Origin: Bacteroidota bacterium
Lineage (GTDB): Bacteria; Bacteroidota; Bacteroidia; 2-12-FULL-35-15
DNA length: 64,000 nt
Assembly: GCA_029237775.1 (NCBI GenBank)
Contig: JAQZBR010000001.1
Coordinates: 434,001 to 498,000, forward strand
Reading direction: 5' to 3'
Shown here: in pieces, positions 2,151 through 7,521 of the stretch
Layout of the letters: every line of letters starts with the position of its first letter
Numbering within the stretch: position 1 is the first letter of the stretch
Notes under the pieces: generated by a model
Databases searched by the model: none
The model's input: the letters and a program-made list of their open reading frames with translations, nothing else
Told to the model about the DNA's origin: nothing
Translations under genes and position numbers: made by a program

Positions 2151-3443
2151 CTAAGCAAATCTCTGAGTGATCTTCTGCTCAATATAATCACGAAGCTCTT
2201 CTATCTTAACCTTCTCCACAACTTCCGAAGCAAAAGCATGCATCAAAAGTTTTTTTGCGGAATCCTCGCTTAAGCCACGGGCACGAAGGTAAAAGATCTT
2301 GTCCTCATCGAGCTTACCCGTTGATGTTCCATGAGAACACTTCACATCATCAGCATATATCTCTAGTTGAGGTTTTGTATTTATAGTTCCGTCATCACTC
2401 AACAGGATGTTTTTGTTTGACTGGAACGCGTTGGTTTTCTGTGCATCTTTTCTAACGAAGATCTTACCATTAAAAGTAGCCGTAGATTTCTCTTCGATTA
2501 TACCCTTGTAAAGCTCATTGCTGTTACAATTTGGTTTACGGTGGTCAACCAACGTATGATTATCAACCGTCTGATGACCCTTCGTGAGATACAATCCGTT
2601 TAGATTGGATTCAATATGCTCATCATCTAAAACAATGTTTAAATTGTTTCTGATGAACATTCCGCTCAGTGTAAAGTTATTGGTTGAAAAAACGCTTTGC
2701 TTTTTCTGAAGAACCTGCGTAGTATTCAACAAATGTCCGTTTTCAGCCTCTTCCTGGATTTTGTTGTGATTTAAAACAGCGTTCTCTGCAACAAAAATTT
2801 CTGTGAGAGCATTGTTAAACACTTTTTCTGAACCATTTGCGGTTAGAAAAGATTCGATCACATTTAATTGCGCATTTTCCTCCAGGACTATTAAGTTGCG
2901 TTGATTAACGATAATGCTTTGAGCAGATGAGGACACATGAATTATGTGCACCGGAAATTCAACAACGGTGTTTCTATCTACATGAATAAACACTCCGCCT
3001 GAAGCTAGCAATGTATTCAAAGCAATAAAAGGATCCGCATTCACATCGGCATACTGTGCATAATGTTTCTGGAAAGAAGAATTTGAAGAAGCGTCTGCAA
3101 CACTCATGATCTGCAAACCGGAAATATTATTGTTGAATCTGGTGTGTTCCTCCGACAAACGTCCGTTAACGATTACGATCATGATCGCATCTTTTACAAG
3201 GCGCAGAGAAGAAATAAATGAAGACGATACGCTTACACCCGAATCTAATAAAAGGTCTCCCTTTAAAGCAAGCTCCATGTTCACATACTTGTATTCCTCA
3301 TGTTTACGCCCCGGAACTCCCTGCCTAGAAAAGGCCTCAGCAGCAAGCTCTCTGATCTTGGCATCACCGAAAAGCGAATTCTTTACGGATTCAAATCTGC
3401 TGATCAGCTTTTCTGTTGTATTTATTTTTGTAATGGTTTCCAT
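2151..3443 (-). CDS. sufD: Fe-S cluster assembly scaffold subunit SufD
   Basis: Partner of SufB and SufC in the SufBC2D scaffold that builds Fe-S clusters in the cytoplasm. The protein is 430 aa, normal for SufD, with a variable helical N-terminus and the beta-helical UPF0051 core. The diagnostic C-terminal segment DVKCSHG (Cys369, His371) and the RGLSEDSAKKLL helix are present; this His is the one implicated with the SufB Cys in cluster formation in other species. It is the last gene of the sufA-B-C-D order on this strand, 63 bases after sufC. SufS and SufE, which often follow in this phylum, are not next to it here. Start ATG at 3443 is the only reasonable one. Confidence 0.95.
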   Translation of the reverse strand: METITKINTTEKLISRFESVKNSLFGDAKIRELAAEAFSRQGVPGRKHEEYKYVNMELALKGDLLLDSGVSVSSSFISSLRLVKDAIMIVIVNGRLSEEHTRFNNNISGLQIMSVADASSNSSFQKHYAQYADVNADPFIALNTLLASGGVFIHVDRNTVVEFPVHIIHVSSSAQSIIVNQRNLIVLEENAQLNVIESFLTANGSEKVFNNALTEIFVAENAVLNHNKIQEEAENGHLLNTTQVLQKKQSVFSTNNFTLSGMFIRNNLNIVLDDEHIESNLNGLYLTKGHQTVDNHTLVDHRKPNCNSNELYKGIIEEKSTATFNGKIFVRKDAQKTNAFQSNKNILLSDDGTINTKPQLEIYADDVKCSHGTSTGKLDEDKIFYLRARGLSEDSAKKLLMHAFASEVVEKVKIEELRDYIEQKITQRFA

Positions 3444-3506: not shown

Positions 3507-4259
3507 CTATGCTCCTATTTCTGCTTTAATAAAATCATATCCTTTTTCTTCAAGCTCAAAAGCCAACTCTTTCGTTCCGGAACGAACTATTTTTCCATTG
3601 TAAAGAATATGAACAAAATCAGGAACGATATAATCCAATAAACGCTGATAGTGAGTGATCACAACTGTTGCATTATCCTTTGATTTTAATTTATTAACTC
3701 CGCCTGCAACAATACGTAATGCATCGATATCCAGTCCGCTGTCTGTTTCATCAAGGATAGCAAGCTTTGGCTGAAGCATCGCCATCTGAAAGATCTCATT
3801 TCTCTTTTTCTCTCCTCCGCTAAAACCCTCATTAACCGAGCGGTTTGCAAGCTTTACGTCAAGCTCAACCAGTTTTTGCTTTTCTTTTACCATTGCAAGG
3901 AAATCTTTTGCTTCCATCGGAGATTCCCCTTTGTATGCTCTGATCTCGTTGATAGCGGTCTTTAAGAAATTAATATTGCTTACTCCCGGGATTTCAACCG
4001 GATATTGGAATGCCAAAAACACACCTTCCCTCGCGCGGTCTTCAGGAGCCAATTCTAACAGATCTTTTCCGTTGAACAAAACTGACCCTTCAGTCACTTC
4101 ATATTCTTCGCGGCCTGCTAATACAGAAGACAATGTACTTTTTCCTGATCCATTAGGCCCCATGATCGCATGGACCTCGCCTGCTTTTATCTCGAGATTA
4201 ATTCCTTTAAGAATTTCTTTGCCGTCAATTGAGGCGTGTAAATTTTTTATTGATAACAT
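3507..4259 (-). CDS. sufC: Fe-S cluster assembly ATPase SufC
   Basis: ABC-type ATPase of the SufBC2D complex, without membrane domain. The 250-aa product starting at MLSIKNLHAS has Walker A GPNGSGKST (residues 34-42), the SGGEKKR signature helix, Walker B LAILDETDSGLD with the SufC-typical ETDSGLD, and the switch His in VVITHYQRLL. I rejected the upstream in-frame Met at 4295: the 12 extra residues would be encoded by an intergenic repeat (TTTGCGTC words), and SufC proteins begin with the ML-I-L strand. The gene sits between sufB and sufD in one operon. Confidence 0.96.
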   Translation of the reverse strand: MLSIKNLHASIDGKEILKGINLEIKAGEVHAIMGPNGSGKSTLSSVLAGREEYEVTEGSVLFNGKDLLELAPEDRAREGVFLAFQYPVEIPGVSNINFLKTAINEIRAYKGESPMEAKDFLAMVKEKQKLVELDVKLANRSVNEGFSGGEKKRNEIFQMAMLQPKLAILDETDSGLDIDALRIVAGGVNKLKSKDNATVVITHYQRLLDYIVPDFVHILYNGKIVRSGTKELAFELEEKGYDFIKAEIGA

Positions 4260-4313: not shown

Positions 4314-5765
4314 TTATCCTACACTACCTTCAAGACTTACTGCCAAAAGCTTTTGCGCTTCAACAGCAAATTCCATTGGTAATTGATTCAGTACTTCCTT
4401 GCAGTAACCGTTAACGATAAGGCCAATGGCTTTTTCATTATCGATACCACGCGACTTACAATAGAACAATTGATCTTCACCTATTTTTGAAGTTGTTGCT
4501 TCATGCTCGATGATAGCCGTTTTATCTTTGATCTCGATGTACGGGAAGGTATGAGCACCACATTTATCGCCCATCAGCAAACTATCACATTGAGAAAAGT
4601 TACGTGCATTGCTTGCGCCTTTTGCTACACGAACCAAACCTCTATAACTGTTGTTGCTGAAACCTGCAGAGATACCTTTTGAGATGATCGTGCTTCTTGT
4701 ATTTTTTCCAAGATGCATCATCTTTGTACCTGTATCTGCCTGCTGATAATTATTCGTCACGGCCACTGAATAAAATTCACCGACTGAATTATCCCCTTTT
4801 AAAATCACTGAAGGATATTTCCATGTAATTGCAGAACCTGTTTCAACCTGAGTCCAGGAGATCTTGGCATTGTCTTCAAGACAAATTCCGCGCTTTGTAA
4901 CAAAATTAAAAATTCCGCCTTTACCATTTTTGTCACCCGGATACCAGTTCTGAACAGTACTGTATTTCACTTCACCATTCTTATGAGCGATGATCTCTAC
5001 AACTGCAGCGTGTAATTGATTTTCATCGCGCATTGGAGCTGTACATCCTTCAAGGTAACTAACATACGCGCCTTCGTCAGCGATGAGCAAGGTACGCTCA
5101 AACTGTCCGGTTCCGGAAGCATTGATCCTGAAATACGTTGAAAGTTCCATGGGGCAACGAACACCTTTTGGAATATAGCAGAATGAACCATCACTGAAGA
5201 CAGCCGCATTCAATGCCGCATAAAAATTGTCTGTGTGAGGAACAACAGAGCCCATGTATTTCTTTACAAGATCAGGGTGTTCCTGAACAGCTTCACTGAA
5301 GGAACAGAAAATAATTCCTTTTTCAGAAAGTGTTTCTTTGAATGTGGTTTTAACTGAAACGCTGTCTATAACAGCATCAACCGCAATTCTGCTTTCTACT
5401 CCTGATAAACGTTTCTGTTCTTCAAGGGAGATTCCAAGTTTTTCAAATGTTTTCAAAAGCTCCGGATCTACTTCATCCAGGCTGTTTAATTTCTTTTGCT
5501 GCTTTGGAGCAGAATAATAAATGATATCCTGGAAATCCGGTTTCTTATAAGATACATGAGCCCATGTTGGCTCTTCCAATGTTTTCCAGTACGCAAAAGC
5601 CTTCAGCCTGTAATCAAGCATCCACTGAGGTTCGTTCTTCTTTTTCGAAATAAAACGAACTATATCTTCATTCAATCCTTTGGGAGCGCTATCCGATTCG
5701 ATATCAGTAACAAAACCGTACTTATAATCGCTATTAATATGCTCCTCTAATATTTCGTTAGCCAT
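4314..5765 (-). CDS. sufB: Fe-S cluster assembly scaffold subunit SufB
   Basis: Core scaffold subunit of SufBC2D. The product from MANEILEEH is 483 aa, the normal length of SufB. Conserved blocks visible are [15 protein letters not shown], the [18 protein letters not shown] segment, [23 protein letters not shown], and [19 protein letters not shown], which carries the Cys equivalent to the essential cluster-building Cys of E. coli SufB. The C-terminal [16 protein letters not shown] block is also typical. The in-frame Met at 5789 would add eight residues encoded by a GGCAGTTGGCAATT repeat and is rejected. A gap of 69 bases, filled by that repeat, separates it from sufA; the sufC gap is also repeat-filled. 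Confidence 0.96.
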
Positions 5766-5834: not shown

Positions 5835-6161
5835 TTATACACTAAAACTCTCTCCGCATCCGCAGGTACGGCTTGCATTCGGATTATTGAATACAAATCC
5901 TTTCCCGTTCAATCCGCCTGTGTAATCCAGCTCTGTCCCTACCAGGTACAAAAAGCTTTTTTTATCCACCGCGATCTTAATCCCTTTGTCTTCAAAAACC
6001 TGATCACCGTCTTTTGGGACGTTGTCAAATTCTAATTTGTAAGAAAGTCCGGAACATCCTCCTCCGTCAACTCCTACACGAATGAATGTTCCCTCCGGAC
6101 GATTTTCATTTTTTATAAGGTCAAGCGCATGTTGCTTTGCACTCTCTGAAACTGTTATCAT
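5835..6161 (-). CDS. sufA: A-type Fe-S carrier protein (SufA/IscA/ErpA family)
   Basis: Small carrier that receives clusters from the SufBCD scaffold and passes them to apoproteins. The 108-aa protein has the three family cysteines: Cys36 in GGCSGLSY and Cys100 and Cys102 in TCGCGESF. Length and motif spacing are standard. As first gene of the suf operon it is best called SufA, though sequence alone cannot separate SufA from ErpA-like roles. The promoter and a palindrome lie 45-100 bases upstream. No signal peptide or membrane segment; cytoplasmic. Confidence 0.92.
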   Translation of the reverse strand: MITVSESAKQHALDLIKNENRPEGTFIRVGVDGGGCSGLSYKLEFDNVPKDGDQVFEDKGIKIAVDKKSFLYLVGTELDYTGGLNGKGFVFNNPNASRTCGCGESFSV

Positions 6162-6203: not shown

Positions 6204-6222
6204 ATTTAGATTGATTCTAAAT
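6204..6222. promoter_or_regulatory. Palindromic operator candidate for suf operon
   Basis: ATTTAGATTGATTCTAAAT is an inverted repeat with 7-bp arms and a 5-base centre. It sits immediately downstream of the -7 box, over the expected transcription start near 6222, where a repressor would block initiation. The form (19 bp, TTTAGA...TCTAAA) is like sites bound by iron regulators of the Fur or DtxR type. The regulator is inferred, not seen. Confidence 0.6.
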
Positions 6223-6228
6223 CTGCTA

Positions 6229-6260
6229 CAAAAATACCTAAAATAAGGTATTGCGGCAAA
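6229..6260 (-). promoter_or_regulatory. suf operon promoter (Bacteroidetes type)
   Basis: On the minus strand this reads TTTG, 20 bases, TATTTTTG. This is an exact fit to the phylum's -33 TTG and -7 TAnnTTTG boxes with normal spacing. Predicted start is near 6222, giving a leader of about 60 bases before sufA. Confidence 0.75.
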
Positions 6261-6330
6261 TATTTTAGACTAATAAAGGTTATCGGAAATGCTGACTTAT
6301 AATAACGTAATTTTAAGCAAAATAGTATCG

Positions 6331-7521
6331 ATGAAGCATATTCTTACCCTCGTCCTCAGTTTTTCATTTTTAACAGGCTTTTCACAATTCTGGCAGCAAA
6401 TTGACAACTTCCCCGGCACCGAACGGGACGATCCTGCAGGCTTCACTATCGGAAACAAGGCATATTGCGGAACGGGCCAAAAACCTTTCTTCATTTCAGC
6501 GAACGACTTCTATTCTCTTGATATGAGTACAGACACCTGGGATACTATTGCATCGTTTCCTGGCACAGAAAGACAATATTCAATGGGATTCTCGGGAAAT
6601 GGATTTGGATTTATTTTGGGCGGTTATAATGGTGCAACCTATTTTAATGATCTGTGGTGCTATACATCTTCTTCGGGGACTTGGACCTCAAAAGCCTCTT
6701 TACCCGCGGCACCAAGGATGGGCTCAGCTAGTTTTGTCATCAATGGAATTGCATACGTCATCGGAGGCAGAACTTCGGCAGCACAGTCAATCAAGGAGGT
6801 GTGGGCTTACAACATCACAAATAATTCATGGCAGCAAAAGAATAATCTGCCGGAGGCACGTTGGCGATCAGTCGCAGCGAGCCTTAACAATAAAGGATAT
6901 CTCGCGTTGGGCAGAGATGAGAACAGCCACTTTTCCAACGACTTGTATGAATATGATCCGGTGACTGATACCTGGACTCTCATCTCCAACACACCGTTTC
7001 CAGGCAGAACTTACTCTGCAATGGTCACCCAGTCAAACAATCTTATCATTCTTGCAGGTCTGGATTCATTAGGAAATAATTACAGCGATATGTGGAAAAT
7101 TGATCCATCCGACCTGAACTGGCAGCAATTACAAAGCATTCCGGCTTTCGGAAGACGCGGAGGCTATTGCTTCAGCAGTGGTTCCGCGGTCTATTTTACG
7201 ACAGGCGTCACGCAGAACGGGACCAGATTGAAAGAAACATGGAAGGTCATTAATCCGGTTTCTATAAATGAAAATACTGAAAATGATGTTTCCATTAATT
7301 GTTACCCAAATCCGGCAAACGAGAGAGTGACATTCCACCTTCCAAAGTCTGAAAAGCTATACAAAGTAAGCCTTCTGAATGCTGCAGGTGAAGCAATGCT
7401 TTCATTTTCCACTCATGATAATGAGGTGAGCATTAACACAATTATGCTTTCTGAAGGATTATATTTTTTGAGGATAGAAGGAAAAGCAGTTCATTACTCT
7501 AAGCTTTTGATTCAACACTAG
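6331..7521 (+). CDS. Secreted Kelch-repeat protein with T9SS type A sorting domain
   Basis: Predicted extracellular or cell-surface beta-propeller protein. From ATG 6331 it begins with a clear signal peptide (MKHILTLVLSFSFLTGFSQ). The body has six or so Kelch blades, each with a hydrophobic strand, a G-G pair (ILGGYN, VIGGRTS, LALGRD) and a Y/W-DTW turn (STDTWDTI, VTDTWTLI). The last 75 residues form a type A CTD: CYPNPANERVTF, a middle strand, then LSEGLYFLRIEG and a final KLLIQ strand. Such CTDs direct export by T9SS and are then cleaved. The Met at 6289 would put 14 residues before the signal peptide and is rejected. Ligand unknown. Divergent from the suf operon. Confidence 0.83.
   Translation: MKHILTLVLSFSFLTGFSQFWQQIDNFPGTERDDPAGFTIGNKAYCGTGQKPFFISANDFYSLDMSTDTWDTIASFPGTERQYSMGFSGNGFGFILGGYNGATYFNDLWCYTSSSGTWTSKASLPAAPRMGSASFVINGIAYVIGGRTSAAQSIKEVWAYNITNNSWQQKNNLPEARWRSVAASLNNKGYLALGRDENSHFSNDLYEYDPVTDTWTLISNTPFPGRTYSAMVTQSNNLIILAGLDSLGNNYSDMWKIDPSDLNWQQLQSIPAFGRRGGYCFSSGSAVYFTTGVTQNGTRLKETWKVINPVSINENTENDVSINCYPNPANERVTFHLPKSEKLYKVSLLNAAGEAMLSFSTHDNEVSINTIMLSEGLYFLRIEGKAVHYSKLLIQH

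Follow-up and report, generated by a model that had tools for sequence, protein, structure and literature searches.

A Fur-box-type palindrome at the suf promoter of a Bacteroidota bacterium and its probable iron and heme regulon

Iron boxes in related systems

The suf operon of Escherichia coli encodes an Fe-S assembly system, carries a Fur site over its promoter and is induced in iron starvation. Several other regulators recognize palindromic operators of defined geometry: the Irr box of alphaproteobacteria (the iron control element) has the form TTTAGAA-N3-TTCTAAA, DtxR sites are TTAG...CTAA palindromes, and NarL-type sites are even-centred, with the form TACC-N8-GGTA. An Irr box can overlap the transcription start (PMC3413700).

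Within the phylum Bacteroidota, a Fur box has been published for Riemerella anatipestifer RA-YM, where it was derived as 5'-ATTTAGAATTATTCTAAAT-3' and purified Fur gel-shifted promoter fragments carrying such boxes (PMC5609570). The boxes lie at HmuR, the ferric-citrate receptor and other iron promoters, and none is listed there for suf, hemA or ctaB. In the fur mutant, the HmuY, HmuR and imelysin genes are derepressed. Expression of the suf genes increases when iron is restricted, in the wild type and the fur mutant alike. Respiratory genes that use iron are lowered by iron limitation, the listed ones also in the fur mutant (PMC5609570), so that a direct role of Fur at the respiratory genes is only putative. 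A preliminary description of the locus analysed here had considered operators of this kind little studied in the phylum, a view that needs qualification given their description in Riemerella in 2017.

Two further iron regulators are known from the phylum. Har of Porphyromonas gingivalis is a heme-responsive Fur orthologue in which CPL replaces the HxH motif and which binds hemin (PMC4222909). The MerR-like iron regulator MliR of Bizionia argentinensis is a protein whose loss lowers the expression of iron-homeostasis, cytochrome and imelysin genes (PMC9478572).

Organization of the suf promoter

The window, by which we mean the whole 64-kb stretch of DNA analysed, contains a sufABCD operon on the minus strand. 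Its first gene encodes an A-type Fe-S carrier of the SufA/IscA/ErpA type (5835–6161; NCBIfam TIGR00049, 120.7 bits) and is followed by sufB (4314–5765; NCBIfam NF008773, 907 bits), sufC (3507–4259; NCBIfam TIGR01978, 368 bits) and sufD (2151–3443; NCBIfam TIGR01981, 278 bits). The operon is driven by a minus-strand Bacteroidota promoter, TTTG-N20-TATTTTTG, at 6229–6260, with TTTG at 6257–6260, a 20-bp spacer and the -7 element TATTTTTG at 6229–6236; the assignment rests on a pattern match and on conservation of the -7 element in relatives.

The perfect palindrome ATTTAGATTGATTCTAAAT (ATTTAGA-TTGAT-TCTAAAT, 6204–6222), with 7-bp arms and a 5-base loop, begins 6 nt past the -7 element in the direction of transcription. 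We infer that the suf transcription start lies beneath it, and the palindrome is a predicted operator by its conservation, its spacing and its likeness to the R. anatipestifer box. Both the promoter and the palindrome had been recognized in the preliminary description, and both were confirmed. A divergent gene at 6289–7521 encodes a secreted, kelch-like protein whose C-terminal tail is of the sorting type; the start of this gene is 67 bp from the palindrome, which could also act on this gene.

Neither element is exceptional by composition. With nine perfect 7+5+7 palindromes in the window, the one at suf is not special by itself; 30% of dinucleotide shuffles of the 129-bp region around it hold at least one perfect palindrome with 7-bp arms and a gap of 0–12; and the promoter pattern occurs three times in the window against an expectation of 2.6. 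The significance of the suf palindrome derives from its conservation across relatives and not from rarity by chance.

Conservation of the palindrome at suf

The regions upstream of sufA were compared at 30 loci of the same genus and 79 other Bacteroidota loci. TTTAGA-N5-TCTAAA with at most one mismatch is present in all 29 same-genus regions long enough to be scored (2 of 580 shuffles) and in 41 of the 79 regions from outside the genus (4 of 1,580 shuffles). The consensus for genus and phylum is TTTAGA-W-T-N-A-W-TCTAAA; the search pattern proposed earlier, TTTAGA-N7-TCTAAA, had the wrong spacing, five bases being correct. Spacing within the genus is nearly fixed: the 17-bp core follows the end of the -7 element after 7 nt at 28 loci and after 8 nt at one (n = 29).

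Because the palindrome of the genus falls just past the expected start, the corresponding RNA could form a 7-bp stem, and the symmetry might then belong to a hairpin with which the suf mRNA begins, instead of to an operator in DNA. The positions found elsewhere make this reading scarcely credible: in the distant suf loci L067, L070, L072, L076 and L112, as at hemA and ctaB, the site lies 5' of the -7 element and is therefore not transcribed from that promoter, and there was no Rfam match.

Copies of the site at iron and heme genes

In a pattern search of the bacterium's own genome, the exact core was found only at suf. Copies with one mismatch lie 5' of hemA, between iscS and sufS, 5' of a multiheme cytochrome gene, 5' of a response-regulator gene and again 5' of the adjoining DUF4856-imelysin operon. 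There are 18 copies at this level, fewer than the 36 of the reversed control, so that bare counts of one-mismatch sites prove nothing, and the argument for a regulon rests on gene context and on exact counts across the class.

The exact symmetric form TTTAGAATNATTCTAAA occurs at 95 sites (summed from the listed counts), spread over 69 of 296 class genomes, whereas the reversed control has 0 sites. Among the neighbours in 30 inspected contexts are sufA (four), hemA (two) and heme oxygenase (two), together with FeoA, the Fe-S repair protein RIC/ScdA, HmuY, multiheme cytochromes, TonB receptors and a response regulator. Within the genus, TTTAGA-N5-TCTAAAT is commoner than its control and is found at hemA, ctaB (heme O synthase), TonB receptors, cytochromes and HmuY. 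The test originally suggested for the locus, a search for further copies beside iron or Fe-S genes, thus gave a positive outcome in the one-mismatch copies of the own genome and in the class-wide sites at iron, heme, Fe-S and cytochrome genes. To judge from these contexts, one box serves a predicted iron and heme regulon in the own genome and across the class.

Fur as the probable regulator

The own genome encodes one Fur-family protein (PF01475) and one DtxR protein. The Rrf2 family (PF02082) is without a match in this genome (G000) and in many site-bearing relatives, and an Rrf2 operator of the IscR/RirA type was rejected for the own genome on this ground. Aligned with solved Fur and PerR proteins, the Fur protein retains the HxH and CxxC motifs. 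It resembles Har in being the single Fur-family protein of a Bacteroidota species, and differs from it in keeping HDH. An Irr operator was considered because of the form of the box, which is similar to the iron control element, and because of a regulon that likewise comprises iron-using and heme genes; it was dropped because the protein is not an Irr, scoring 30.5 bits with the NCBIfam model IrrA (cut-off of 150) and 30.3 bits with Irr (cut-off of 170).

A repressor of the DtxR/MntR family would recognize sites that are likewise TTAG...CTAA palindromes, and one copy of the box lies between a DtxR gene and a TonB receptor gene (L276). The family (PF01325) is, however, absent from G004 and G034 (each 99% complete) and G024 (97%), near-complete relatives with a perfect suf site; DtxR is missing also from G005, where the suf site is intact, and the hemA and ctaB sites do not track the presence of DtxR across genomes. 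A DtxR operator is accordingly very unlikely and was rejected. Fur is present in both G004 and G034, where DtxR and Rrf2 are missing and the response regulator considered below has no close orthologue.

Of the 19 positions of the R. anatipestifer Fur box (PMC5609570), the site in the window matches 17, in keeping with the iron-box form ascribed to it from the outset. It conforms to ATTTAGAATNATTCTAAAT, the 19-bp odd-centred palindrome of the Riemerella-type Fur box, and, as with that box, copies stand in promoters of iron, heme or Fe-S genes in an organism that encodes a metal-sensing Fur. Moreover, the 19-mer of R. anatipestifer HmuR, ATTTAAAATTATTCTAAAT (PMC5609570), includes the core seen at the response-regulator gene of the own genome.

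Given the conserved suf site, the iron and heme gene contexts, the match to the Riemerella box and the retention of Fur where the other regulators are absent, we assign a probability of about 0.83 to the reading that the suf palindrome is a Fur box, at which an iron-loaded Fur dimer most likely blocks the sufABCD promoter, and that the same box marks an iron and heme regulon. Of the three families originally proposed, Fur is thus the best supported; Rrf2 is excluded in this genome for want of a gene, and DtxR is absent from some site-bearing relatives. Fur binding to promoter fragments with such a box has been demonstrated in Riemerella, and from this and the sequence comparisons we infer that Fur binds the suf site, that iron is what it senses there and which way the promoter responds. 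When iron is plentiful, the single Fur, loaded with Fe2+ and dimeric, would bind the box over the start and block the sufABCD promoter; as iron falls, it would leave the box, and Fe-S assembly would rise.

Some observations stand against the Fur reading. In R. anatipestifer, suf rises under iron restriction in the fur mutant as in the wild type, and no Fur box is listed for it (PMC5609570). A search around 30 fur genes turned up no copy of the motif, which removes fur autoregulation as a source of support. The palindrome was also not found in most of the Sphingobacteriaceae suf promoters examined.

A second palindrome over the -7 element

The preliminary description overlooked another perfect palindrome, AATACCT-AAAATA-AGGTATT (6233–6252), which spans the promoter spacer and the suf -7 element. 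Its core, ATACC-N8-GGTAT, is present upstream of suf at 11 of the 30 genus loci and 15 of the 79 others, and in none of the shuffles. Away from suf, it is close to 11 of 74 copies of the first motif, compared with 6 of 1,153 background windows. It is a candidate second operator. It has the TACC-N8-GGTA form of a NarL 7-2-7 site and accompanies imelysin and HmuY-linked promoters.

This form bears on an alternative owner of the first palindrome, an orphan NarL/LuxR-type response regulator (G000:C11:260462-261127). The first palindrome, with at most one mismatch, lies no more than about 40 bp from the start of its gene in 22 of 30 orthologues, and the gene adjoins imelysin or HmuY genes that themselves carry the site. 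Yet the suf palindrome is present in G003, G004 and G034, which have no close orthologue of the regulator, a box of this kind is bound by Riemerella Fur in vitro (PMC5609570), and the even-centred NarL-type form suits the second motif better than the Fur-type palindrome at suf. We regard binding of the suf palindrome by this protein in place of Fur as improbable. The second palindrome is itself intact or nearly so at suf in G003, G016 and G017, in which no close orthologue of the response regulator was found.

The response-regulator gene (L220:4463-5131, the same gene as above) stands beside a DUF4856-imelysin operon that has the box and two ATACC-N8-GGTAT sites. Relatives of the protein share a conserved cysteine after the KD motif of the receiver. 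At L379 and L359, a similar short cysteine-containing open reading frame adjoins the palindrome, in L379 beside the response regulator; a family search with this reading frame gave no identification.

Fur, the preferred regulator of the first palindrome, is unlikely to be the sole control of suf, since suf of Riemerella responds to iron without fur and a conserved palindrome lies on the promoter itself; a further control could act through the second palindrome. The locus resembles the suf operon of E. coli in that genes for Fe-S assembly are preceded by a promoter with a Fur site, here a predicted one, lying over it; the box sequence is different, and where E. coli has IscR and OxyR as partners, the present genome has no Rrf2 protein and a candidate second operator. 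MliR, as a Bacteroidota iron regulator touching cytochrome and imelysin genes, was checked as a possible owner of the second palindrome. The accessible part of its published account yielded no binding site (PMC9478572), and the tie is only a lead.

Upstream boxes at hemA and ctaB

At hemA, the box ends exactly 45 bp before the -7 element in 14 of 14 promoters in which that element was found, and at ctaB it ends 36–38 bp before it in 17 of 17. This placement looks more like that of an activator site. A tentative and rather doubtful extension of the Fur reading is that Bacteroidota put one Fur box to two uses: over the start it would repress suf and iron uptake, and at a fixed distance of about 37–45 bp 5' of the -7 element it would activate hemA and ctaB at plentiful iron, with the second suf operator adding a separate Fe-S or iron signal in the absence of Rrf2.

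With the Fur box itself already known from Riemerella, what the present comparison adds is its predicted extension to suf, hemA, ctaB and the whole class, the two placements and the candidate second operator. In the literature searched, which took in few subscription journals, no earlier report of suf, hemA or ctaB boxes was found. A box so far known in a single duck pathogen, at about a dozen promoters, would become a class-wide, searchable Bacteroidota iron regulon, with suf, hemA and the heme O synthase gene ctaB named as likely direct targets. The result argues against the use of the E. coli Fur consensus in Bacteroidota, and it draws attention to a candidate second suf operator in organisms without Rrf2 regulators.

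In the regions upstream of hemA (L294–L321), most members of the genus have a conserved element resembling TGACAAT-N3-ATGACAAT between the Fur box and the promoter.
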